Program-made: the position numbers and the translations under genes
Notes under the pieces: generated by a model
Databases searched by the model: none
What the model was told of the DNA's origin: nothing
What the model saw: only the letters and a program-made list of their open reading frames with translations
Part shown: piece after piece, positions 1 through 28,223 of the stretch
Numbering within the stretch: the stretch's first letter is position 1
Layout of the letters: every line of letters starts with the position of its first letter
From: a virus
Virus record (IMG/VR): IMGVR_UViG_3300029448_000140
Coordinates: 1-37,435 of that record
DNA: 37,435 nucleotides
Reading direction: 5' to 3' (one strand)

Positions 1-984
1 CTTGTATTCTGCTACTTGTACGGCATTTTCTATATCAAAGATATGAAATGCTGAGTAGTCTTGACTGTCTCCTCTTGCTACGTCAGCTACTACCATGTAG
101 TCTTTTGAGTAGTCAGGCGTCTCCCATATCCACATATTACCGTCTATTCCTCTACGTTCAAGAGGTTCTTGCATTTGAGTTTCTTCGTAGAAAGTCATGT
201 CTTCAGGTTCAAATACAGTATCGCCGGAAGATAGGAAGTCACAATCACATTCCTGTGCTGCCATTCTAGGACCTAAGTCACCGTCCTGTTGTTCACGCCA
301 AGCCTCATTTCTTTCCGGGTGAACGGTCCAAGGAAGTTTTATAGGAAGAAAACTATTTTCTTTAGTTTGAGCTCTTGTCCATGTTTGATGAAACCAGTTA
401 CCTACACCGTTAGGAGTTGACAGAGCTATACACTGTCCACCGGTTGCTAAAGTTTGTTGAGCTGAAGTAAACGTTTCATCGATATTATCAATAAATGCAG
501 CTTCATCCAATACAAGTAGTGATACTGCTTCAGATCTTGCAGCATCAGAGTTAGAAGAAGCAGCTTTAATTCTAGATCCATTTTTTAACCTTAAACTTAA
601 TTTATTCTTTTCTACAGATTTCATACGTAACCATTTAGGTAGCTGGTCGTACATAAACTGTACCTTAGTTACCAGGTTACGTGCTGTAGCTTGAGTTGTT
701 GCAAGAGTAAGTATGTTTTTGTCTTTATGAAAGGTCATTAACCATAACGAGTAGCCTGCTACTAAAGTAGAGATACCTAGCTGTCTAGACTTGAGAGTTA
801 TAGCGTACTGGTTATCTTTATAAAGCTGTAGTACTTTTTCCTGGAAAGGGTAAAGGTTAAATAGAATACGACCACGTGTTGGATGCTGTATATAGCAGTA
901 CTTTTTCATAAAGTAAACCGGGTCCTTGGCACACTTTACGTATTCTTGAGTTATAACCTTTTTTATTTGCTCTTGTTGATTCAT
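1..984 (-). CDS. 17: Terminase large subunit (T4 gp17-like), C-terminus beyond window
   Basis: This is the DNA-packaging motor ATPase and headful nuclease, which works at the portal of the prohead. I translated the leftward frame from the ATG at 984; it stays open to the window edge (328 residues). The ATPase domain has a deviant Walker A, SRQLGIST, at residues 66-73, a Walker B LLVLDEAAF at about 156-164, and an STPNG coupling motif near 189. The nuclease domain begins with VVADVARGD near residue 297, which would carry the first metal-binding Asp. The classical Walker A lysine is replaced by Ile; in phage terminases the basic residue is commonly moved to the start of the loop (KSRQ here). 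The rest of the nuclease domain is missing because the window ends. A TATTTATA box lies 3 nt before the start. Identification is strong. Confidence 0.95.
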   Translation of the reverse strand, partial: MNQQEQIKKVITQEYVKCAKDPVYFMKKYCYIQHPTRGRILFNLYPFQEKVLQLYKDNQYAITLKSRQLGISTLVAGYSLWLMTFHKDKNILTLATTQATARNLVTKVQFMYDQLPKWLRMKSVEKNKLSLRLKNGSRIKAASSNSDAARSEAVSLLVLDEAAFIDNIDETFTSAQQTLATGGQCIALSTPNGVGNWFHQTWTRAQTKENSFLPIKLPWTVHPERNEAWREQQDGDLGPRMAAQECDCDFLSSGDTVFEPEDMTFYEETQMQEPLERRGIDGNMWIWETPDYSKDYMVVADVARGDSQDYSAFHIFDIENAVQVAEYK

Positions 985-1003: not shown

Positions 1004-1555
1004 TTAGAAATCTACTATTTTTAACTCGCCAGATTTAGTTTGGAGTAAATTACCTTCGTGTAGATCTAATTCATTAAACTCTAATCCCCTAAATCCTACC
1101 TTGTCATAGTCGGCAATAATGTCTCTGTAAAAACTCTGTAAATAAGAAGGTATATCGTCTATTTTAGGAGTACCGTTTAAGTTTTTCTGAATGTCGTGAA
1201 TCTCTTTTGCGTACTGTATATTTTTACCGGTTAACGGATACAGTAGGTCTTGAACCTTGATAGCAAGTCTAGGATTAATAACTTGTATTTCATATATATT
1301 AATAAATCTATTTGTTTTACCGGCTTTTTTTATAAGTCTAGACTCTATTATTTCATCTGAGTCTGTAGTAACTTTTATAGTTAAGTCTTTATCTTTTATC
1401 TTAAAAACTTTACCATATTGGCCTGATCCTAAGAAGTGGTCTAGACCTTCGTACTGATCTAAGTATTCTAGATACTTATTATTATCTTTGATAAGCTTTT
1501 TAATATCTTCCCAAGAACTGACGTGTTGAATGTCGTATATGTTCTCAGTTATCAT
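1004..1555 (-). CDS. Minimal protein-kinase-like protein ending at the DF motif
   Basis: This 183-residue protein has the hallmarks of the protein kinase/aminoglycoside kinase fold. They are a glycine-rich loop GSGQYGKVF (residues 43-51), a candidate ATP-binding lysine in TIKVT (K61), a candidate helix-C glutamate (E71), a catalytic loop LDLHEGN with D164 and N169, and KIVDF as the last residues, where D182 would be the metal-binding Asp of DFG. The chain stops there, so the activation loop and the C-lobe helices after it are absent. It overlaps the upstream gene by ATGA and lies 19 nt before the terminase gene. It could be a compact kinase, a pseudokinase or a nucleotide-binding structural protein. 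The substrate is unknown. Confidence 0.65.
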   Translation of the reverse strand: MITENIYDIQHVSSWEDIKKLIKDNNKYLEYLDQYEGLDHFLGSGQYGKVFKIKDKDLTIKVTTDSDEIIESRLIKKAGKTNRFINIYEIQVINPRLAIKVQDLLYPLTGKNIQYAKEIHDIQKNLNGTPKIDDIPSYLQSFYRDIIADYDKVGFRGLEFNELDLHEGNLLQTKSGELKIVDF

Positions 1556-1959
1556 TTTGATCCCAAAATAATTGCAGCTCCGGCTAAGATACCGGTAGTA
1601 TATTGAAAGAATTTTCTACGTCCTACCTGCTTATCCAACTCCATCTCTAAGGTAATAGCAATAGTATCGTACTTTTCTACTTGCTTTTTACGATTGGTAT
1701 CAACTGATTGTAGGTTAAAGATCTGTTCTTCAAGTGAGAAAATCACACTATCCTTTACTACTACCTTCTGTTCTACCAGAGACAGTTTTATTTGAGTGGC
1801 ATCAAGCTCTTTTCTTAAAGCGTCTCCTAAGAGAATATCCTTAATTACTGCTCGTGCTATCTTCTCCGGTAGGATTACTAAAGAGGTATCCGTAACGGTC
1901 TGTGAAAAACTCGGTAAGCTGACTAGCATTAAAAGTATCAACAGCAGTAACTTCTTCAT
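1552..1959 (-). CDS. Secreted coiled-coil protein, possible outer spanin partner
   Basis: This 135-residue protein starts with a clear signal peptide: two Lys, a Leu-rich core and a likely cleavage after LPSFSQ. The FSQ ending is common in Bacteroidota signal peptides. Residues 45-110 look like coiled coil. Residues 116-133 form a second hydrophobic stretch (TTGILAGAAIILG). Its first 119 bases overlap the preceding gene in another frame, an arrangement typical of Rz/Rz1 spanin pairs. It has no lipobox cysteine, so it is not a classical outer-membrane lipoprotein spanin. A role in lysis is inferred from topology and overlap only. Confidence 0.5.
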   Translation of the reverse strand: MKKLLLLILLMLVSLPSFSQTVTDTSLVILPEKIARAVIKDILLGDALRKELDATQIKLSLVEQKVVVKDSVIFSLEEQIFNLQSVDTNRKKQVEKYDTIAITLEMELDKQVGRRKFFQYTTGILAGAAIILGSK

Positions 1960-2224
1960 TGGCTTCTTCTCTTATTTTCTCAATCTTATCATCTTGAACT
2001 TCTATTTCTTGATCTAGAGCCGTAATTTCAGTATTGAGAGAATCTATGGTTATTATTAAAGTTTCGTTTTCAGAATGTAAGGAGTCGATTTTGGCATCGA
2101 GAGCCTCTATTTCTTTTTTATAAATATCTATGTAACTAATGTCCTTATTAACCGTAATATAGTAAACGGTTCCTAAAAGAGCAATTAGTAGTAAGATATA
2201 TACAGAACGTTCTTTTGTTTTCAT
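1841..2224 (-). CDS. Membrane-anchored coiled-coil protein, possible inner spanin
   Basis: This 127-residue protein has one N-terminal transmembrane segment at residues 8-25 (VYILLLIALLGTVYYITV). A long heptad-rich coiled coil follows at about 35-90, then a Ser/Thr-rich tail. This is the topology of an inner-membrane spanin (Rz-like) or another envelope-spanning phage protein. It is overlapped out of frame by the next, signal-peptide-bearing gene. The coding strand reads TATTTAGATGCA shortly before the start, a weak version of the TATTTATA box. No enzyme motif is visible. The lysis role is an inference. Confidence 0.5.
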   Translation of the reverse strand: MKTKERSVYILLLIALLGTVYYITVNKDISYIDIYKKEIEALDAKIDSLHSENETLIITIDSLNTEITALDQEIEVQDDKIEKIREEANEEVTAVDTFNASQLTEFFTDRYGYLFSNPTGEDSTSSN

Positions 2225-2235
2225 TGAAAATGCAT

Positions 2236-3405
2236 CTAAATAATTTCTGTACCTCTAGCTTTAAAATTCATGCCAAAACGGGACTGAGCTGTATTGCTAG
2301 TTGGGCTCTTAGCAAAAAGCATAGGTAGTACTAATTTTGGATTTGAAGGGATGGGCTTTTTTCTGTCTGTAAAAAAATAATCTCCACTTCTTTTCTTAAT
2401 ATGAGCATATATAGTTGGATAATCTTCTATGAATTCTTCTATAGAAATTATATCACCGTTAACATGAAGCTCATTTTCTTTTACTTCACTTTCTACAGTC
2501 ATTGGTCCAATATAATATACATGAACTGGTCCGCCGAATCTTTCAATACCTGTTAAAATAGTTCTCATTATATCTTTAGGAACAGCTCTATTAATATCTT
2601 TGAAATAAGGAGTTCTATATAAATTAGTACTGTAGTCAATATCAGGTAGGGATTCAAAAATTTTCTTATAATGTTCGTAAGCGTCATAATAAAATTCTTC
2701 TATAAAGGACTCAACTTCAGGTCCTAAATTTGACGCCATTTTTAACCCGCCGCCAGCTATACTTGGAGAGGCTGAACCTTTTGCAGATATATTTATATCA
2801 CCGTTTGAGGTTTTGATAACTATATCTGAATAGGCTTCTCCTTCAGGTGGGTCGGGCATTTTTTGGGCACCGGTTATACCAGTAATCTTTTTTCCATTTT
2901 TTCCGACAAGATCAAAAGGTTTACCCTTGAACTCATTAATAGCAGCTATTAGACTTCTTTCTTGTCTTTCAGATGACTCTGCTTTTGATTTACCTGTACC
3001 TCCTAAATCAGGAGTTTTAGTTATATCATGAAAAGTATAGGTACTCCCTTCTGCGTCTTTAAAAAATGGGACTCTGTTTATACTTCTAGATATTTTCCTA
3101 ATTTTTTCAACTTCTTGATTATAAAATAAATTAAAATACTCTTCTTTTGTAAACTTAAGAACTTTTTCTTCTCCAGACTCTAGTTTGAAAGGGGAACCTT
3201 CTTTAATCTTATTAGCAATAACTTCAAGTCTAATAAACTTTCTAGTATCGCTAGACAGATCTTTCCATTCTAATTTTTTTTCAGAAAGCAGATTAAAACC
3301 AAACATGGATTCAAATATAGCTAAATCTTGCTCATTGTTAAAGTCGGGATAGCCTTTCTCACATCTGACTGACCATTCAAATAAAACTTTACCTAAGAGG
3401 TCCAT
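2236..3405 (-). CDS. Phage protein, possible PD-(D/E)XK-type nuclease fold
   Basis: I do not recognise this 389-residue protein by family. The middle has a pattern that could be a restriction-endonuclease-like core: a Glu-bearing helix near residues 146-158, then YSDIVIKTSNGDINISAKG at 192-210. There, D194 and the S-A-K triplet (S207, K209) would match the D-(D/E/S)-X-K arrangement on two beta strands. The canonical acidic residue before the Lys is Ser, so activity is uncertain. It overlaps the preceding gene by TAATG, in the run of small phage-specific genes upstream of the terminase. It could equally be a structural protein. Confidence 0.4.
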   Translation of the reverse strand: MDLLGKVLFEWSVRCEKGYPDFNNEQDLAIFESMFGFNLLSEKKLEWKDLSSDTRKFIRLEVIANKIKEGSPFKLESGEEKVLKFTKEEYFNLFYNQEVEKIRKISRSINRVPFFKDAEGSTYTFHDITKTPDLGGTGKSKAESSERQERSLIAAINEFKGKPFDLVGKNGKKITGITGAQKMPDPPEGEAYSDIVIKTSNGDINISAKGSASPSIAGGGLKMASNLGPEVESFIEEFYYDAYEHYKKIFESLPDIDYSTNLYRTPYFKDINRAVPKDIMRTILTGIERFGGPVHVYYIGPMTVESEVKENELHVNGDIISIEEFIEDYPTIYAHIKKRSGDYFFTDRKKPIPSNPKLVLPMLFAKSPTSNTAQSRFGMNFKARGTEII

Positions 3406-3956: not shown

Positions 3957-6021
3957 AATGTCGTGGATTAGATTTCTTTAAATATGGTCTCTTACAAGTA
4001 GTACCTTTGACATGCTTTCTACCACATCTATGACAGCATGTGGCTTTTGCTTCATTTAACTTTTTTTTTTGAATCATCATTTCTACTGCCTCTCTAAGAG
4101 CAAGTCTGAATTCAGGATCTCTACTTAAATTTGCGTAAAGTTCATCAGAAAAGCCATCTTTACCTTGACTAATAAAGTTATCAAACTCTTCCATGGCTTC
4201 ATCTGGGTCTTTAACGTACTTAAGAATTACGTCATAAATTTTACTAAGCTCTTCAGGGCTTTCTTGTAAGGGTTGTTTACTTTTCTCGAAAAGGTAATCT
4301 TTAATATCTCTTAAGTTAATATCAAAAGCGTTTGCTATACGGAAGATGTATTCTGCTGCAGTACCTTGTATATCGCCTGATTCTTCGCCATGTACTCTAA
4401 TATCATGTATGACATCATCTAGTACACTGCTACGTTCGTTTAAGGGTTCTTCACTTTTCTCGAAAAGGTAATCTTTAATATCTCTTAAGTTAATATCAAA
4501 AGCATTAGCTATGTGAAAGATATATTCGGCTGCAGTACCCTGTACGTCTCCTGATTCTTCACCGTGTACTCTAATATCATGAATAACATCATCTAGTACA
4601 CTGCTACGTTCGTTTATTTCTTCTTCAAGAGCCATTGCATCTAAAGCATCTTCTTTCCCTTCGAACTCTAAATAATGTTGAGCAGCAGAAATATAGTCTT
4701 TAGCTTTAATTAGCTTAGCCTGCCACCAATTTGGAAAATCTACTTCACCTTCCATTCTATCGTACTTAGCAAGTTCTTTATAGAGTTTGGCAGCATAGAC
4801 GGCTGTATCGTAAGCATACTGCTTTAACATACCTGGTTCATCATCCTGATGACCAATGTCTAAATCGTCTTGAGGTACTTTTTTATATTCTTCACTACCC
4901 TCTAGTCTAGTTCTTAAATCCTCAGGAAGACTCTCAATACCGCTTGTAAGGAGTATATCTAATGACTCTCTGGCTTGTTGTTCTAATTGATGACGGGGCA
5001 TTTCCGGGTGCATTTCAGCATAAAAGTTATGTACTACTTTCATTAATTCGTTTTGATCTTCTGATTCTACCTCCTCATTAGAGTAGTAATGCTTTACTCT
5101 CTTAGAAGATTTAATAATTTTTTCAAATAATTCAGTACCGCCTTGTACTACAGTATCACTACCTTCTTCGTAAAGATTTACCATACCATTTGGTCCAATA
5201 CCTATTTTAAACATTCTTTCAGTTCCTTCAAGCTGTATGGTATCGCCTATTAGTAATGTGTTACCTTTAATATCTTTGGCAGAATCGTCGTGTTGTTCAG
5301 TTTTCATTGCTTTTTTTATGGCTTGATCTTTAGCTGCTAAGTAATCATCAGAATCTATATCACCGTCTCCGTCGTGATCTTTACCTTTCTTTTCTTCTAG
5401 ATACTTAGAACGAAAGTGTTTTACTAAATTATTTTTAATAACATCTCTGTTAAGAACTGGCTTACCGGATGGAAGAACTCCAACTTCTCCAACTACTTTA
5501 TCAAAAGTAAAGTCTGTTAAATGAAGTTCCTTACCGGAAACATAAAAAGAAAATTCGTCATCTCCTCCATCGCCTTCGTAATCTACAGTAAGCTCAAAAC
5601 TACCGCCTTTAGGAGAACCTTCTATACCTTTTACCTTCATAGCTACTACAGCCTCACCTAACTGCTCTAAGGCACTATTAAGAGCCTTTCCTACTTCGGC
5701 AGCTATATGTTTAATTTCAATCTGAGAGTATTCGATGTTATCTTGTTCGTTCATATCGTCGTCAGCTAATTTAACGTCAATTCCTCTTTTAGCTAATTTT
5801 TCAGCCTCTCTAGCATCAGAAGTTGTTACGGAACCGTCAGTGGCTTCTTCTGGATTGTATTGAGTTACCGCAGGAGTTTTAGATCTCATTTTATCTTTAG
5901 GGTCAGACTTACGTGCACCTCTTTCTTCGGCATCTTTAGTAAGACGTCCTTTTACAAGGTTACCAGATTTAGTATAGTAGTGGCCGGCCGGAGCAGTTTT
6001 AGTTTCGTTAGTCATATTCAT
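3943..6021 (-). CDS. Large multidomain phage protein with EF-hand-like loop, internal duplication and C-terminal zinc finger
   Basis: This 692-residue protein is probably virion-associated. Residues 1-90 are polar. DHDGDGDIDSDDY at 215-227 matches a calcium-binding EF-hand or dockerin-type loop. Residues 469-526 and 527-584 are a nearly perfect tandem duplication of a 58-residue unit beginning NERSSVLDDVIHDIRVHGEE. The C-terminus (662-689) is basic and rich in Cys and His, with CCHRC, a Cys at 676 and HC at 688-689, so probably a zinc site. It starts by ATGA overlap with the upstream gene. I know no named family for the whole protein; scaffold or head-internal roles are possible. Confidence 0.45.
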   Translation of the reverse strand: MNMTNETKTAPAGHYYTKSGNLVKGRLTKDAEERGARKSDPKDKMRSKTPAVTQYNPEEATDGSVTTSDAREAEKLAKRGIDVKLADDDMNEQDNIEYSQIEIKHIAAEVGKALNSALEQLGEAVVAMKVKGIEGSPKGGSFELTVDYEGDGGDDEFSFYVSGKELHLTDFTFDKVVGEVGVLPSGKPVLNRDVIKNNLVKHFRSKYLEEKKGKDHDGDGDIDSDDYLAAKDQAIKKAMKTEQHDDSAKDIKGNTLLIGDTIQLEGTERMFKIGIGPNGMVNLYEEGSDTVVQGGTELFEKIIKSSKRVKHYYSNEEVESEDQNELMKVVHNFYAEMHPEMPRHQLEQQARESLDILLTSGIESLPEDLRTRLEGSEEYKKVPQDDLDIGHQDDEPGMLKQYAYDTAVYAAKLYKELAKYDRMEGEVDFPNWWQAKLIKAKDYISAAQHYLEFEGKEDALDAMALEEEINERSSVLDDVIHDIRVHGEESGDVQGTAAEYIFHIANAFDINLRDIKDYLFEKSEEPLNERSSVLDDVIHDIRVHGEESGDIQGTAAEYIFRIANAFDINLRDIKDYLFEKSKQPLQESPEELSKIYDVILKYVKDPDEAMEEFDNFISQGKDGFSDELYANLSRDPEFRLALREAVEMMIQKKKLNEAKATCCHRCGRKHVKGTTCKRPYLKKSNPRHCANK
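4270..4617 (-). repeat. 174-bp in-frame tandem duplication inside a CDS
   Basis: Two adjacent 174-bp units (4270-4443 and 4444-4617) encode the same 58-residue helical segment. The amino acid differences I see are V/I and H/R internally and a few at the linker (SEEPL versus SKQPL). Many nucleotide differences are synonymous, so the duplication has been kept under protein-level selection. Confidence 0.9.
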
Positions 6022-6443
6022 AAGCTTTCTTGATTACGTTTTGCCCAATCGAAAGATACGGAATCTTCGTCAATAGGTCCACCTTTTGCCCATGTATTAC
6101 AAGTTCTAGCTGAATGGCATTTAAAATGGTGCATCCAGCAGTAGCCAAGTACTCCATCTTTATCAGAAGTTTCTCCGGGCATACATTCGTTTATTCTAGG
6201 AGAGATGTCAAAAGCAACGCAGTTACCACATAGAGAAGCTTTAGCTGCTTCAACAGTAGTTTGCCATTTTTCGGCTATCTTATCCCAGTAGTCACCAGGT
6301 TCGTCAACGTTTAGAGGACCGTAAGATATCCAGTCTGCCTTTATTGCGTGGTCTCTATTCTTAGTATTAAACTCAACATCTTGAGTTGCTCTAGGACAAG
6401 ATTCCCACTTTTCTGCTTCTAGTATAAGTTCAAGTAGTTTCAT
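6018..6443 (-). CDS. Cysteine-rich metal-binding phage protein
   Basis: This 141-residue protein begins MKLLELILEAEKW, which resembles a T4 capsid-targeting peptide with a gp21-type cleavage site (I-L-E|A). The body is Cys/His-rich: SCP near the N-terminus, CGNC, a single Cys before MPGE, then YCWMHHFKCHSARTCNTW. Seven cysteines suggest an iron-sulfur or zinc centre. I recall similar proteins in marine T4-like phages, without known function. The gene ends by ATGA overlap with the next one. A TATTTATA box lies 6 nt before its start. Confidence 0.5.
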   Translation of the reverse strand: MKLLELILEAEKWESCPRATQDVEFNTKNRDHAIKADWISYGPLNVDEPGDYWDKIAEKWQTTVEAAKASLCGNCVAFDISPRINECMPGETSDKDGVLGYCWMHHFKCHSARTCNTWAKGGPIDEDSVSFDWAKRNQESL

Positions 6444-6461: not shown

Positions 6462-7046
6462 TTATTCTACAATACGTAAGACCTCTGTCCATAGGTACGT
6501 ACACTCGTCAAAATTTTTAGGAGTTGTTTTAATAAAAGTATATTTTCCCTCTTGAAATAAATCTATATTCTGTATGCTTGCTTCTTTAAATTTATTAAAA
6601 AAATAAGAACTAGAGTCTTTTAGACCTAATATACCAACCTTAGCATATTCGACAACATTATCTACAAAAATTTCTTGATCTACATACTGTAGACGTTCGT
6701 ACTCAGGGTTATAAGTAAAAAGAGTTTCACCGGTCTCTATATTTGTAAACTCTACTCCAGTAGTTTTAATTAACTGTTCAATCATCTCTAACTGAAAGAA
6801 AACTTTTACGTATTCGTCTCTATTATAAAAATGTCCTGAACAGCTAGGAGTAGTTCTAATCTGTTTGTCATGAAGAACCGTAACAACCGGTTTAAGTAAG
6901 TCATCAACCGATTCTATAAACTTATTACCTGATGCAATAATGTTTTCGTTATCAGAGTATTTATGAAAGTACCAGCCTGAGTGTTCAGATATGTACCAGT
7001 CATACTTATGAAATACTTCATGAGGTATGAGAGTATCGAGTAGCAT
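6462..7046 (-). CDS. Hypothetical phage protein with T-x-S-C-S-G-H motif
   Basis: This is a 194-residue soluble protein. The only motif I see is TTPSCSGHF at about residues 65-73. Similar S-C-x-G-H/R motifs occur in TYW3-like proteins, but the resemblance is too short to assign function. The rest is rich in aromatic residues, Glu and Ile. It overlaps the upstream gene by one base (TAATG). Function unknown. Confidence 0.35.
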   Translation of the reverse strand: MLLDTLIPHEVFHKYDWYISEHSGWYFHKYSDNENIIASGNKFIESVDDLLKPVVTVLHDKQIRTTPSCSGHFYNRDEYVKVFFQLEMIEQLIKTTGVEFTNIETGETLFTYNPEYERLQYVDQEIFVDNVVEYAKVGILGLKDSSSYFFNKFKEASIQNIDLFQEGKYTFIKTTPKNFDECTYLWTEVLRIVE

Positions 7047-7528
7047 TACTGGCAGTGGTAATTCAGGTATCTTTGCAAAGCCTTAGCGTAGGTAGTACCT
7101 TTGTCTTTTAACTTAGCTCTTTCCGCTCTTACTTTAGAGCAAGATAACTTACCTAGTCTTTTCTTAAGTATACCTGGGTTCATTGGTTTATGAACGTCTT
7201 CCGATCTGGTTTTTTTAGGGCTCTTTCTACATTTATAAACCTTGTCGTGAGGGCAAAAGTATTGACCGTACTTACACTTTAATTCATTTACTTTTTTTGC
7301 AGGTCTATATCCGGAACCGTAAGGTGCAGCTTTACCGTCGTGCTTGTAAGAAGGATCAAGATTTTCAGAATATTTACTAATGTGAATAGCTGTCATTTGA
7401 TCTTCGGCACCTTTTCTAGTTTTATGAGTACCTAATCTTTTACCACCTTTCTTAGGGTATACAGCGTATTCGTCTCCCACTTTACGGATAACTTCTCTAA
7501 CTATTTCACGTAGTTCTGATTTCTTCAT
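7046..7528 (-). CDS. Basic phage protein with N-terminal targeting-like helix
   Basis: This 160-residue, strongly basic protein starts MKKSELREIVREVIRKV, one of the recurring amphipathic N-termini in this window. Residues 20-52 (YAVYPKKGGKRLGTHKTRK and on) match a short module I associate with many phage proteins, where a Lys/Gly hairpin precedes a helix. Four cysteines near the middle (CKYGQYFCPHDKVYKC) and at 130 may bind metal. The high charge suggests DNA contact, possibly inside the head. Function unproven. Confidence 0.45.
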   Translation of the reverse strand: MKKSELREIVREVIRKVGDEYAVYPKKGGKRLGTHKTRKGAEDQMTAIHISKYSENLDPSYKHDGKAAPYGSGYRPAKKVNELKCKYGQYFCPHDKVYKCRKSPKKTRSEDVHKPMNPGILKKRLGKLSCSKVRAERAKLKDKGTTYAKALQRYLNYHCQ

Positions 7529-9330: not shown

Positions 9331-9877
9331 AACCGAGTTCTTTAAATTTATTTAAAATAGGAGTTAGGTTTGTTGTATTTTCTGGGTGATGTATACCTAT
9401 ACCTCCGGCGTTATTCCACCTCTCTATAGTATCTTCTCTATCGTCTATAAGTATTGAATTTTCATCAGCAAAATCATGCTTCTCTTTTGCTCTTCTAAAA
9501 TTTACTTTTGGTTGAGTATTAAGATGATCTTTAACCCAAATATTTTTACCTAGACGTGATTCATTGGCACGGGAAGGAGAAGTTAAAAGTTGTGGATTAT
9601 AAGGTTTAATAAAATTCCAAAGCATTTTGCCCATTGGTGTCCAATCCATTTTAGACCAGAATACAAGTCCTACTTCATTATCTATAAGATTCCAAAATTG
9701 GTTTTTACCAAATCGGTCTTCATACTCTCTAGGATTCATTCCTGTAAAATGTTCAAACCTAGCTCTGAAGTTGCAGAGTACTCCATCCATATCACAATAT
9801 ATTTGATAAGGAGGAATTTCTTTAATTTCTCTCAACGGATCAGGTCCACCTAGAAGTTCTAATAACGTTTTAGCCAT
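9323..9877 (-). CDS. HAD-family phosphatase, 5'(3')-deoxyribonucleotidase-like
   Basis: This 184-residue protein has HAD motif I YCDMDGVLCNF (nucleophile D29, acid D31), motif II LLTSPS near 97-102, and a motif IV-type ILIDDREDTIERW segment near 141-153 followed by GGIGIHH. This matches the NT5C family that removes phosphate from (deoxy)nucleoside monophosphates. The short N-terminal extension MAKTLLELL is another targeting-like start. It overlaps the nucleotidyltransferase gene by 8 bp, so the two are translationally linked. Nucleotide salvage or nucleic acid end repair are both possible. Confidence 0.75.
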   Translation of the reverse strand: MAKTLLELLGGPDPLREIKEIPPYQIYCDMDGVLCNFRARFEHFTGMNPREYEDRFGKNQFWNLIDNEVGLVFWSKMDWTPMGKMLWNFIKPYNPQLLTSPSRANESRLGKNIWVKDHLNTQPKVNFRRAKEKHDFADENSILIDDREDTIERWNNAGGIGIHHPENTTNLTPILNKFKELGYE

Positions 9878-11087
9878 TCTTAACTGTATCCTCCCAGCTA
9901 CGGAAAGTCATATTTCCAAGCATGTAGGCTTCTTTTTCTAGTTCTACTAATGCTTCGTCTTCATTAACATTAGTAGTTTTTATATTATTTATTCTTCCTT
10001 CAATATTCTGCATATGATGTATCATTTCATGTACGAAAGATCTCATTACATCTTTTGGATGACGGCCTTCAACGTAAAGTACAATCTCATTTACGTTAGA
10101 ATCATAATATGCAGTTTTACCAAAAAAATCAACTGCTTCAACCGGATCTTTTTTAATCTTTACTTCAGGTAATGGAGTTATATTCATTCCGCTACTAAGC
10201 ATATACTCTAAAATGGATCCCATATACGGGGTATAATCAAAACCTACTTTTTGATCTTCATTAGGTATCTGAACTCTAACATGGTCACCGTTGTATTTTA
10301 TATCGTAAAAGTTTTTTCCTAAAACGTTCTCTATTCTATGGTAAGCAGTTACGAGCTTAGCTCTATCTGCTGCAGAAACAGCGGACATCATCTTAATGGG
10401 AGTACCAGAATTACCTTCTTCTACGTCCTTTTCTTCACTTATAAAAACTTTATCGAAAAAGTCACCCATCTCCTCAAAGAGTTTTTGTTCTGCTTTTACT
10501 GTATCTTTTACCATGTTAAAAATAGTTTGTCTTTCTGGTTCTGTTAGTTCGTCTGGTATGTACTGTTTAAATAGGTCAAAACTATTAGATATAGCGGCTT
10601 TTCTTAGATCAGTAGCCCTTACTCCTTCTAAATCAGACTTTAAAGCTAGGCCTTTAGAGTTAGGATACTTTTCAAAAGTCTTAATTCTTGATAAGTCTGG
10701 ATAGTCTCTTTCTGTTCTAAGGTATACTGTGTTTATGAACTGTTTATCCGGATTCTGTTTTACCATTTTTATAGCCGTACGAATAGGGTCGGAATCAGGG
10801 CTAATTAGTATATCTACATTATTAGGTAAATATTTTTTATAAATGTTCCAGACCTTCAAAGAATCTTCAGCAGAAATACCATTTCTAGCTTTATTAGAAA
10901 TAATAACTACTACTGTATCTACTTTTTCTTCAGCTTTTTTCGAACGTAAAGTACCAGGAGTAATCTTTCCTGTTTGGTCGGAGTCCCATTTAGCAGCTTT
11001 GAAAGTATTTGTAGCAAGTTCCTTGACGGCTAAAAAATGCCCTTTAGTAGGTGGTTTAAAAGCTCCAGGAAAAATTGCTACTGCCAT
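9870..11087 (-). CDS. Nucleotidyltransferase fused to zincin-like metallopeptidase domain
   Basis: This 405-residue fusion begins with a HIGH-type nucleotidyltransferase domain: AIFPGAFKPPTKGHF at residues 4-18 holds the ATP-binding TKGH, and GVRATDLRKA near 155-164 resembles the second ISxTxIR motif. After a linker (190-240), the C-terminal domain carries SFVHEMIHHMQN (H353, E354, H357) and a downstream ELEKEAY (382-388) that can supply the third zinc ligand. That gives a complete gluzincin-type site. Substrates are unknown: candidate roles are NMN or CMP-sugar type adenylyl/cytidylyl transfer plus protein processing. It overlaps the kinase gene start by one base. Confidence 0.75.
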   Translation of the reverse strand: MAVAIFPGAFKPPTKGHFLAVKELATNTFKAAKWDSDQTGKITPGTLRSKKAEEKVDTVVVIISNKARNGISAEDSLKVWNIYKKYLPNNVDILISPDSDPIRTAIKMVKQNPDKQFINTVYLRTERDYPDLSRIKTFEKYPNSKGLALKSDLEGVRATDLRKAAISNSFDLFKQYIPDELTEPERQTIFNMVKDTVKAEQKLFEEMGDFFDKVFISEEKDVEEGNSGTPIKMMSAVSAADRAKLVTAYHRIENVLGKNFYDIKYNGDHVRVQIPNEDQKVGFDYTPYMGSILEYMLSSGMNITPLPEVKIKKDPVEAVDFFGKTAYYDSNVNEIVLYVEGRHPKDVMRSFVHEMIHHMQNIEGRINNIKTTNVNEDEALVELEKEAYMLGNMTFRSWEDTVKNG

Positions 11088-12019
11088 TACTTTAAGAATT
11101 GATTAGCTTTAAATATAGCTTCTGATTGTGATTCTGCATCTAGCATTTTATTGAATTTAGGATTAAGTACCATTTTAGCTATCTCATCCAATATCTTCTC
11201 ATGTTTTACAGCAGCATTATCTCTAGTTCTTTCAATACTTTTAATTTTAGTTTCCATCGACTTACGACCAGGACCTTGACCTTTTTTATCCCACGACTTC
11301 ATAAAATGTCTTTTTAGTTGCTTAACCATTGACTCGTCATCTTCTTCAAAGTTAAGGCCTTGAACTTCTGTATTATATGCCTCTAAAGGTTCTGGGTCAG
11401 TAATGTCGAAGTCTTTTGAAAAAGTAGTTTTATATTTTTCAGGATCTTTAGAAATCATCGAATCTAAGTACTGTAAGATACCTGCACCTTTTTTCTGTGC
11501 AGCTTTATTAAAGTCTTTAATCTGTTTGTCATACTCTCCACCTCGCATATTTGATACAAGTATGAAATTTTTTCCAAGTAAATCTCTGTAATTGTCTACA
11601 AGATCGTAAGCTTGTTGCCAGGTAGAAAATACAGCTGATTTTGGTACAGCACGTGAACGTTCAAAGTTAGAAATAAAAGAAATAATAGGATGAGTATACA
11701 CCATTACTACGAAAACATCATAACCCTCTTCCTGTATTTGTCTTATAGTTTCTATATCTCTCCCAGTAGTATCCCATATAAAGGATTCTTTAGCATCTAC
11801 AGCCGCAAGTACGTCTTTCCTGACCATAGGTGATGCTGCACCTAAGTTATTGTACATAGGGCTGTTAGGATCTTCTACGTACTTATCTGGGTTGTATTGA
11901 GTAATGTCTCTAGTATTTACCTTGCTAAGTATATAGGATTTCCCTGCACCAGCTCCGCCGGCCATAATAAGGGCTTTAGGTCTTCCCTCTTGTTCTAATA
12001 GTATTTGTGCTAATTTCAT
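11087..12019 (-). CDS. P-loop kinase, zeta-toxin/polynucleotide-kinase-like
   Basis: This 310-residue protein starts MKLAQILLEQEG, a targeting-like N-terminus, then has a Walker A GGAGAGKS at residues 21-28. A helical lid and WDTTGRD near 80-86 follow, as in zeta-toxin-type and other small-molecule or polynucleotide kinases. The last 90 residues are Lys/Glu-rich helices. T4-like phages often carry zeta-toxin-like genes without an antitoxin, and none is seen here. It sits with a nucleotidyltransferase and a HAD phosphatase, which suggests nucleotide or RNA-end metabolism. A TATTTATA box lies 25 nt before the start. Confidence 0.65.
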   Translation of the reverse strand: MKLAQILLEQEGRPKALIMAGGAGAGKSYILSKVNTRDITQYNPDKYVEDPNSPMYNNLGAASPMVRKDVLAAVDAKESFIWDTTGRDIETIRQIQEEGYDVFVVMVYTHPIISFISNFERSRAVPKSAVFSTWQQAYDLVDNYRDLLGKNFILVSNMRGGEYDKQIKDFNKAAQKKGAGILQYLDSMISKDPEKYKTTFSKDFDITDPEPLEAYNTEVQGLNFEEDDESMVKQLKRHFMKSWDKKGQGPGRKSMETKIKSIERTRDNAAVKHEKILDEIAKMVLNPKFNKMLDAESQSEAIFKANQFLK

Positions 12020-13770: not shown

Positions 13771-14037
13771 TCAAATATGTTTTGTGATACCTACCTTTAG
13801 TTCCCCTGTACCTTTAATTATCCTATGGTAAACTCCTTTAGGAACGGTAATAAAGGTATTCTTCTCTAGAGTAAAAGGTAGCTCATCTTCTAACTGAAAT
13901 TGCCAGTCGGAGTCATTTAAAGCTTGAATCGTTCTGTTTTCTTTGTCTCTATGCCATACAAGTTCTTCCGGATCAACGGATGGAGAAAATGTACGAACTA
14001 CAAAGTTCTCTTTTGTTTTTTCAGTAAACGGGAACAT
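13771..14037 (-). CDS. Small cupin-fold protein
   Basis: This 88-residue protein looks like a single-domain cupin. The first motif region is WHRDKENRTIQAL, and the second is VPKGVYHRIIKG, in which a conserved Pro-x-Gly precedes the His of a beta barrel. Such short cupins occur in marine T4-like phages with unknown substrates. It stands between the primase gene and a probable virion gene, 6 nt from its upstream neighbour. Metal-dependent oxygenase, isomerase or sugar-binding roles are all possible. Confidence 0.6.
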   Translation of the reverse strand: MFPFTEKTKENFVVRTFSPSVDPEELVWHRDKENRTIQALNDSDWQFQLEDELPFTLEKNTFITVPKGVYHRIIKGTGELKVGITKHI

Positions 14038-14043
14038 AATATG

Positions 14044-14601
14044 TTACCAAAACCCGGGGTAGTTTTTGCTTCCGCCTAAGGACTTCCAGTATCTATTGAC
14101 ACGGCAAGACCAGTATCCAGGTTTGGTTTTATCTTTTTTATCTTTACAGTTATGTCTATCGGCGAAAGCTTTTCTTCTAGCGGGATCATCTAACTTAACA
14201 GAAAGATTCTGTCCACCGCCTTTGGCACCAAATTGTACTTTTACAACATTACCTTTATTATTTTTTACGTAAACGTAAAATTTCTTGGATCCACCTCTTT
14301 TAGGTTTATTAAGATCAACATCTTTACCCTGGTATTCGGCTTCATTAAACATAGGTAGATCTAGAGGTACTTTACTACCTTCAAATATTCCGTACTCTCC
14401 AATATCAGTTTCGGAAATAAGTTCTAAATCAGCCGGAATAAGTTCTATTTGTTTTCCTTCGTATAGCTTACGTGCTTGAGCAAATAGATCTATAAATGCA
14501 TCTGATGAGTACCGATAAACATTTTCATGTAATGCTAACCCATGTTTAAGGTGGTACTCAATACCAGGGGTAGAAATAATAATATCGGTTAGCTTAATCA
14601 T
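14044..14601 (-). CDS. Conserved phage protein with basic C-terminal GYWSCR module
   Basis: This 185-residue protein has a C-terminal half that matches a module I recognise from many myoviruses. FYVYVKNNKGNVVKVQFG is followed by LDDPARRKAFADRHNC and then KPGYWSCRVNRYWKSLGG. The two cysteines with the nearby His may bind metal. The N-terminal half is acidic and unrecognised. The start overlaps the upstream gene by ATGA. Function unknown; a virion-internal or DNA-binding role is plausible. A TATTTATA box lies 74 nt upstream, inside the neighbouring gene. Confidence 0.5.
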   Translation of the reverse strand: MIKLTDIIISTPGIEYHLKHGLALHENVYRYSSDAFIDLFAQARKLYEGKQIELIPADLELISETDIGEYGIFEGSKVPLDLPMFNEAEYQGKDVDLNKPKRGGSKKFYVYVKNNKGNVVKVQFGAKGGGQNLSVKLDDPARRKAFADRHNCKDKKDKTKPGYWSCRVNRYWKSLGGSKNYPGFW

Positions 14602-27409: not shown

Positions 27410-27819
27410 TACTGTTCTATATTAATTATAATCTCGTCTTGAATATCTGATTCCGTAACTCTGTACCTTAGGAAAGTTACAAACGTGTTAGTATCAGGTT
27501 CGCTGGATATTTGAAGTTCAAGTATCTCTACTCTAGGAAAATATATGTTTATTGTATTAGAAATATCTGCTTTAACTCTTCTTAGAGTGTCTTCTGTAAT
27601 ATTTTCAAATAGGTAGCTTCTAAGGCCTGTACCTAAGAACGGGTTTAAGTATCGCTCACCGTTTCCGGTTAGTAGTAAGTTTATCAAATTAGTTTTAACG
27701 GCATCTTTGGATGTGTACGTAGAGTTAAAAACTCCTCGACCAGAAAATGGCAAAGAAACTCCGATGGCCTTTCTAGGCTGTAAATCTAACGGATCTATAC
27801 GTTTAACATCAAATGCCAT
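27409..27819 (-). CDS. 25: Baseplate wedge protein (T4 gp25-like)
   Basis: This 136-residue protein belongs to the GPW/gp25 family, the wedge component that nucleates sheath assembly. The core DAVKTNLINLLLTGNGERY, then NPFLGTGLRSYLFENIT, is the family signature (LLxTxxGER...P.xG..L...LFE). The C-terminal strand pair (VEILELQISS and TFVTFLRYRVTE) completes the fold. Length is normal. It is followed directly by gp6 with a TAATG-type overlap, so the two wedge proteins are co-translated. Confidence 0.92.
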   Translation of the reverse strand: MAFDVKRIDPLDLQPRKAIGVSLPFSGRGVFNSTYTSKDAVKTNLINLLLTGNGERYLNPFLGTGLRSYLFENITEDTLRRVKADISNTINIYFPRVEILELQISSEPDTNTFVTFLRYRVTESDIQDEIIINIEQ

Positions 27820-28223
27820 TATCCACCTACTCTAAACTTGTCTTTTTCTACGGATTTATTATATACTGCTGCAGCCTTTCCTACAAAATCCAACTTACTA
27901 ATATCTAAACCAGGTTGAGGACCAGCAGGAGCAGAGATAGGCATAGAGTTTGTATTAAAATTTACTGACTCCATACCGGGTTGTATATTACTACCGAGTA
28001 CGTTTTTAAAGTCTTCTCTTGTCATACTCTGTTTAGTCATATTAAGCATTTCCATTATTGGATCGCCAGACTTAATAGATTTCTTCTGCACCGGTTGAGC
28101 TACGGTTTTGGATGTAGGACTTGAAGCATTTGCAACTGCCTCGTTTAAGAGCTCTTTTATCTCCTCTCTTACAGCTTCTTTAACTGCTTCCTTTATTATA
28201 TTTTTTAGTTGATTTGCCTTCAT
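27819..28223 (-). CDS. Small baseplate-region protein with targeting-like N-terminal helix
   Basis: This 134-residue protein begins MKANQLKNIIKEAVKEAVRE, a long amphipathic helix of the type repeated across this window. Then follows a Pro/Ser/Gln-rich disordered linker and a short conserved-looking end (LDFVGKAAAVYNKSVEKDKF). By position it might correspond to a gp26-type accessory wedge or hub protein, but I see no sequence support. A TATTTATA box is 3 nt before the ATG. It overlaps gp25 by one base. Confidence 0.4.
   Translation of the reverse strand: MKANQLKNIIKEAVKEAVREEIKELLNEAVANASSPTSKTVAQPVQKKSIKSGDPIMEMLNMTKQSMTREDFKNVLGSNIQPGMESVNFNTNSMPISAPAGPQPGLDISKLDFVGKAAAVYNKSVEKDKFRVGG

Follow-up and report, generated by a model that had tools for sequence, protein, structure and literature searches.

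Substrate binding and regulation of protein kinases are usually ascribed to the C-lobe, and the minimal atypical kinases Bud32/PRPK and RIO retain a reduced C-lobe after the DFG motif. Kinase-PolyVal (PF18762) is described by Iyer et al. (2017, PMC5512222) as a member of the kinase superfamily which has lost the whole C-terminal subdomain and kept the active-site residues, with stand-alone versions occurring in the Bacteroidetes lineage. For the T7 gp0.7 homologue JSS1_004, PMC12345140 reports that phosphorylation by the isolated kinase domain inhibited the nicking activity of DndFGH in vitro, and that in vivo removal of the shutoff domain left a JSS1 mutant with almost no resistance, phosphorylation alone being insufficient. 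By analogy with T7, we infer that the kinase domain of JSS1_004 has no C-lobe. Phage kinases without a C-lobe are thus already published, at least in the account of Kinase-PolyVal (PMC5512222), and the protein analysed here, P0001, extends a known, little-studied theme.

P0001 is encoded on the minus strand at 1004-1555 of the window, i.e. the whole 37,435-base virus record that was analysed, and comprises 183 aa with an ATG start and a TAA stop. The original prediction had recognised a Gly-rich loop, an ATP lysine, an Asp-x-x-x-x-Asn motif and a terminal Asp-Phe in this protein. Indeed, all four were found on the minus strand: the Gly-rich loop G43-S-G45-Q-Y-G48-K-V50 at 1406-1429, with the pattern G43xG45xxG48, the ATP lysine Lys61 at 1373-1375 (in model strand 58-63), the catalytic loop D164-L-H-E-G-N169 at 1049-1066, and D182-F183, the DF of DFG and at the same time the C-terminus, at 1007-1012. 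Glu68 (1352-1354, minus strand; model helix 66-78) is, by its position, a candidate partner of Lys61. The activation segment and the C-lobe, both features of the canonical PF00069 domain, are absent, as had been claimed. The stop codon lies only 19 bases before the start codon of the next gene, so no C-lobe is encoded directly 3' of P0001. At the DNA level, the pattern D-[hyd]-H-xx-N-[hyd]-11x-D-F-TAA matched once in the window and in 0 of 100 dinucleotide shuffles; a chance motif is ruled out by this shuffle test together with the kinase-like predicted fold.

The gene adjoins the terminase gene, as had been noted earlier with no strand given. The large subunit gene terL (1-984, minus strand; phrog_2 E 3.7e-46, PF03237 E 1e-13) follows directly downstream and is cut by the window edge. 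Upstream, a gene at 1552-1959 (minus strand) overlaps that of P0001 by 4 bases; its product has a signal-peptide-like N-terminus, is o-spanin-like by place only, and gave no family match at E<=0.01 in the PHROG and Pfam profile searches. The gene before it (1841-2224, minus strand) probably encodes an Rz-like spanin (phrog_739, E 1.7e-5), with the phrog_95 integrase family scoring slightly better (E 9.5e-6) and many coiled-coil families matching too. Across the 11 family-I loci examined (L001-L006, L060-L064), terL lies 3' of the gene in every one, and both upstream spanin-like genes are present in 9, the other two (L005, L063) having little upstream sequence. Late expression of the P0001 gene is plausible from its place beside terL and the spanin-like genes. 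Further upstream, the product of window 2236-3405 (minus strand) is patchily conserved among the close relatives (e.g. 41-43% or short matches only), with highly conserved neighbours.

Structure prediction followed by fold searching, as the original prediction had proposed, gave a kinase-like fold rather than one unrelated to kinases. The best AlphaFold2 model of P0001 had a pLDDT of 85 and a pTM of 0.81 (74-79 for the other four models), with low confidence at residues 36-47, the Gly-rich loop (pLDDT below 50), and it contains the N-lobe and the catalytic-loop structure. A Foldseek search of the PDB with this model returned 85 matches at E<=0.001 (best E 8.4e-5), and the best 50 of the 85 were all protein kinases, with modest query-length TM-scores of 0.34-0.46. 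In VIA-align, the best match was CDK2 (Z 7.7, middling by the scale of the tool; rmsd 4.1 A over 118 residues), and the alignments ended at residue 146 of CDK2, 169 or 168 of p38 and 275 or nearby of Aurora A, positions which we take to be the DF of DFG. The match of the predicted structure to protein kinases thus extends as far as the DF of DFG and stops there. In BFVD, 66 matches at E<=0.001 included uncharacterised phage proteins of 146-224 aa as well as phage proteins named protein kinase. Family scores from the sequence were low: P0001 reached 15.2 bits against Pkinase (PF00069), below the cut-off of 31.7, the best PHROG kinase had an E of 6.1e-4, and PADLOC mad6 matched residues 17-58 at E 0.0014. 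The sequence search of P0001 against the PDB gave no convincing match and that against NCBIfam no match. For a more divergent group of phage proteins (family II, alignment A7), the model had a pLDDT of 87 and its best match was CDKL1 (Z 10.6, rmsd 3.4 A over 131 residues).

The end of the chain is conserved among relatives. Six close IMG/VR relatives (86-97% identity) are each of 183 aa and stop at the same VDF (6/6), and the other complete family-I relatives end at D-F or D-L. The median dN/dS of the P0001 gene is 0.050 (21 pairs), compared with 0.037 for the available part of terL (21 pairs) and 0.24 for the upstream gene (15 pairs). More distant members were compared in an alignment of 19 sequences (A6), 12 of family I including P0001 and 7 of a branch typified by Flavobacterium phage immuto. 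Residues G43, G45, G48, K61, D65, E68, N169, K179 and D182 occur in all 19, followed at the C-terminus by F in 11, L in 1 and V in 7. Asp164 and Gln102 are present in 12/12 family-I and 0/7 immuto-type sequences, and His166 in 11/12 and 0/7, respectively. The residue set of the superfamily (Gly-rich loop, beta-3 Lys, catalytic Asp, Asn and DFG Asp) is therefore complete in all 12 family-I members, the catalytic Asp being kept even in members that share only about 29% of their residues with P0001. Family II has the catalytic Asp and the DFG Asp in 9/9 sequences, and hhalign joined A6 and A7 with a probability of 94.5 and an E of 7.8e-8 over 153 columns reaching the last residue of both.

We also examined how exact the DF end is. 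Scans based on two alignments (A4 and A5) used N-lobe peptide patterns. Apart from P0001, the seed sequences of these alignments had been collected with a DF-stop pattern; consequently, L060, L062-L066, L068 and L077 merely recover genes already known, and the end-point test rests on the new loci L061, L067, L069, L070-L073, L075 and L076, with L074 cut by its contig. Among these new loci, L061 (about 40% identity to P0001) ends CDL, L067 and L069 end LDF, L070-L073 end LDI (L070 and L071 being identical in sequence), and L075 and L076 run on to DINKN, i.e. end 4 residues after the Asp. L044, which came from the DF-stop pattern and has 26% identity to P0001, ends IDF. In viral contigs, 16 of the 17 stretches matching the DF-stop pattern lie in frames judged by eye to be kinase-like (the exception is L052); 6 of the 16 were already known from the close-relative search, and the contig edge truncates L050 and L054. 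Of the 31 stretches in genome contigs, 30 fall in interrupted, short or unrelated frames, and the remaining one, L101 from a Bacteroidota MAG, resembles a kinase tail, in an open frame of some 42 codons that lacks an N-lobe. On these sequence comparisons, the DF-ending kinase-like protein is not peculiar to a single phage.

A control pattern with the stop placed five codons later gave 8 stretches. Two of them recovered DF-stop genes once more; the other 6 (L111-L116, some nearly identical to one another) were phage frames, called kinase-like by their catalytic motif only, whose last residue is the sixth after the DFG Asp. Because other phage frames do end at that point, this control is not a null. 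L111-L116 carry the motif D-[MF]-H-xx-N-F-G-Y, and L112 had no tblastn match in the phage collection. When the pattern was made to continue as DFG, 35 stretches were obtained, comprising many longer kinase-like frames and several chance frames; L131, L133 and L139 are short and end 8-11 residues after the Asp. Very short tails thus vary in length (6 residues here, 21-22 in T7-type proteins), so that on the sequences compared the common feature is the missing C-lobe, and the exact DF end is the extreme form within a range of very short tails. No match was found by tblastn with four other family members in the phage collection. The A6 profile matched in 5 of 296 Bacteroidota genomes, all six matches lying in open frames of at least 319 aa. 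The kinases of S-CBWM1 (E 8) and Leo2 (E 0.6) were left out as relatives, their chains continuing well past the DFG Asp.

Immuto gp093, annotated as a hypothetical protein, is a distant homologue of P0001 (E 2e-8; 36.6% identity, covering 55% of the query) and shares its end point, but differs in its length of 146 aa, its DV end, its replaced catalytic Asp and its genomic place. In immuto and at L044, the gene is flanked on one side by a homologue of window 13771-14037 or 14044-14601 and on the other by the primase gene, and does not adjoin terL. In IMG/VR, 32 immuto-type loci with 21 distinct sequences were examined, one locus (L010) a 100% match to immuto, and 30 of the 32 end IDV or VDV. 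The other two, L037 and L041, are copies with early frame breaks (56 and 79 aa). At the position five residues before the Asn, Asp occurs in 0 of the 30 intact loci, where S (27), R (2) or L (1) is found. Correspondingly, the 7 immuto-type sequences of A6 have S or R at the catalytic Asp and keep the Gly-rich loop, Lys, Asn and DFG Asp. Since the catalytic Asp is lost and the nucleotide-binding residues are kept, the immuto branch looks like a pseudokinase, as judged from these residues. The alternative first posed for P0001, a small enzyme or a pseudokinase, is thereby partly resolved: the catalytic Asp is retained throughout family I in A6 and is missing from every intact immuto-type locus.

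As in Kinase-PolyVal, the C-terminal subdomain is missing from P0001 and the active-site residues remain, and Gln102 of family I, in model strand 97-103, may be equivalent to the Gln of the last N-lobe strand of Kinase-PolyVal. In contrast to Kinase-PolyVal, the Glu before strand 2 was not found in P0001 by eye (SGQYGKVF, compared with EGAEQKVY/SGAEQKVY in L157 and L158), and the chains of L157 and L158 (open frames of 169 and 213 aa, respectively) run on for 12 residues beyond their DFG-like Asp whereas P0001 ends at the DF. These two are the only clean complete frames among 7 PolyVal loci: L159 is interrupted by an internal stop, L163 is incomplete, and the frames taken for L155, L156 and L160 are full of stops. 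P0001 gave no listed match to PF18762 with a limit of E 10, HMMER filters dropping weak matches, and none of the 21 records of relatives had a match over the cut-off. In hhalign, the P0001 family reached a probability of 5.4% over 43 columns against Kinase-PolyVal. On these sequence comparisons, P0001 is not classed as a member of PF18762. The family itself matched in 9 of the 296 Bacteroidota genomes. The one weak PF18762 match in the records of relatives (E 0.0061, 12.2 bits) is in the 74,815-base record G019, which holds L054 and L059, on the same strand just upstream of the DF-stop protein; some DF-stop proteins may thus be PolyVal-like.

T7 gp0.7 has DMHSGN at 195-200 and a DFG-like Asp at 213, with 29 residues between this Asp and residue 242, presumably the end of the kinase domain. 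T7 gp0.7-type proteins resemble P0001 in the Gly-rich loop, the D-x-H-xx-N motif and, by our reading, the lack of any stretch long enough for a C-lobe that would separate the DFG-like Asp from the basic part, and two of four homologues, the Kayfunavirus versions, end 21-22 residues past that Asp. Unlike P0001, these proteins are longer and have DP in place of DF, and those of T7, KN3-1 and Dagda_B1 continue for more than 100 further residues with a basic part. Sequence similarity is weak, P0001 matching phrog_15752 (T7 gp0.7-type) at E 0.0025 on residues 23-68 and its family matching T7 gp0.7 in hhalign with a probability of 3.2% (E 0.014). T7 gp0.7 itself gave no match in a sequence search of the PDB. 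PRPK (Z 9.6) and Rio2 (Z 8.7) were among the best 50 structural matches for the family-II model; P0001 differs from both types in having no C-lobe after the DF.

We estimate at roughly 50% the probability that P0001 is a functional, compact, ATP-dependent phage protein kinase. The conserved residues and end point, the purifying selection and the predicted fold support this reading, as do family II and the precedents of Kinase-PolyVal and the T7-type kinases. Against it stand the low family scores, the modest TM-scores and middling Z, the poorly predicted Gly-rich loop, the immuto branch, which preserves residues that determine the fold in spite of its lost catalytic Asp, and the in vivo result for JSS1. 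Such a kinase would consist of an N-lobe, a hinge, two helices, the catalytic loop and strands 7-8, and its chain would stop one hydrophobic residue past the metal-binding Asp. ATP and metal would be bound via Lys61, Asn169 and Asp182, and Asp164 would serve as the catalytic base in transferring phosphate to a protein. The peptide platform of the C-lobe may be lacking altogether, or its role may be taken by the N-terminal helical extension or by the target itself. If the parallel with the T7 gp0.7-type kinases of phages holds, this target may be a protein of the host or a defence protein. The immuto branch would then have descended as a pseudokinase that still binds nucleotide.

Several other explanations were weighed against this reading. 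P0001 might be a pseudokinase, acting as an ATP-binding scaffold or an allosteric partner, e.g. of terminase or another late protein, with no phosphotransfer. The missing C-lobe and the fate of the catalytic Asp in the immuto-type branch (0/30 intact loci, with the nucleotide-binding set kept in the 7 aligned sequences) are consistent with this, as is, for a terminase partner, the position of terL in 11/11 family-I loci; however, the catalytic Asp is present in all 12 family-I and all 9 family-II sequences aligned, and the gene does not adjoin terL in immuto and L044, so we consider a pseudokinase possible, if doubtful. A small-molecule phosphotransferase of the APH/choline-kinase type is unlikely. 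The D-x-H-xx-N motif without the HRD His, which P0001 has, is found in APH-like enzymes, and the L044 protein matched APH_6 at E 0.0049 (16 bits, cut-off 325), but the best 50 structural matches are protein kinases, and the acceptor pocket of APH/choline-kinase-type enzymes is made largely by the C-lobe, absent here. There is likewise a low probability that the protein, kinase or not, is packaged in the virion and delivered with the DNA. Immuto gp093 and several family-II proteins start with a short hydrophobic-x-E stretch which resembles the capsid-targeting sequence of T4, and in immuto 100-150 kb, with the head genes and prohead protease, a regular expression for it fitted 18/54 CDS N-termini vs 47/955 internal 14-mers (4/68 vs 37/829 in immuto 50-100 kb). 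Yet the expression was chosen post hoc, some of the 18 are unlike a targeting sequence, and no such stretch was seen by eye in residues 1-17 of P0001.

That P0001 is half of a split kinase, its C-lobe coming from another gene product, is very improbable: the catalytic loop is already within P0001, and its gene neighbours, to which this point is confined, are spanin-like genes and terL. A precedent exists in another bacterium, for which PMC9758233 describes a HipA kinase that is probably composite, the product of a pair of adjacent genes. A truncated pseudogene is scarcely credible. P0001 does end midway in the canonical domain, but this explanation is rejected by the end point shared with its relatives and a dN/dS of 0.05; a longer C-terminus, which would mark the copy as truncated, was not found among the close, the other complete family-I and the immuto-type relatives, the immuto-type loci ending at D-V in 30 of 32 cases, with 2 broken early.

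Beyond the compact kinase reading for P0001 itself, we tentatively suggest, with clear reservation, that tailed phages have a set of kinases in which a single hydrophobic residue follows the metal-binding Asp and closes the chain, which place the free C-terminal carboxylate at the active site, and which catalyze phosphotransfer without any C-lobe. If so, these proteins, with lengths of roughly 180-230 aa, would rank with the smallest proteins that consist of the kinase fold on its own. The DF-ending phage proteins with their active-site residues kept, forming two divergent families, offer a natural test of the minimal fold for phosphotransfer, and the immuto branch would serve as a natural pseudokinase for comparison. 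The DF-ending proteins are also candidates for host-takeover or counter-defence roles among the 'hypothetical proteins' of phages.

Some features of neighbouring genes were also observed. Many unrelated proteins near the head genes of immuto (100001-150000) share the N-terminal hydrophobic-x-E stretch, and in the window such N-termini were seen by eye at 6018-6443, 7046-7528, 11087-12019 and 27819-28223. The product of 11087-12019 (minus strand), with the N-terminus MKLAQILLEQE, is a zeta-toxin-like P-loop kinase (PF06414, E 3.8e-11). In addition, window 9870-11087 (minus strand) encodes a 405-aa protein that matches the phrog_395 cytidyltransferase at residues 152-207 (E 8.5e-9) and has a homologue in the immuto-type contig L012 (35% over 413 residues).
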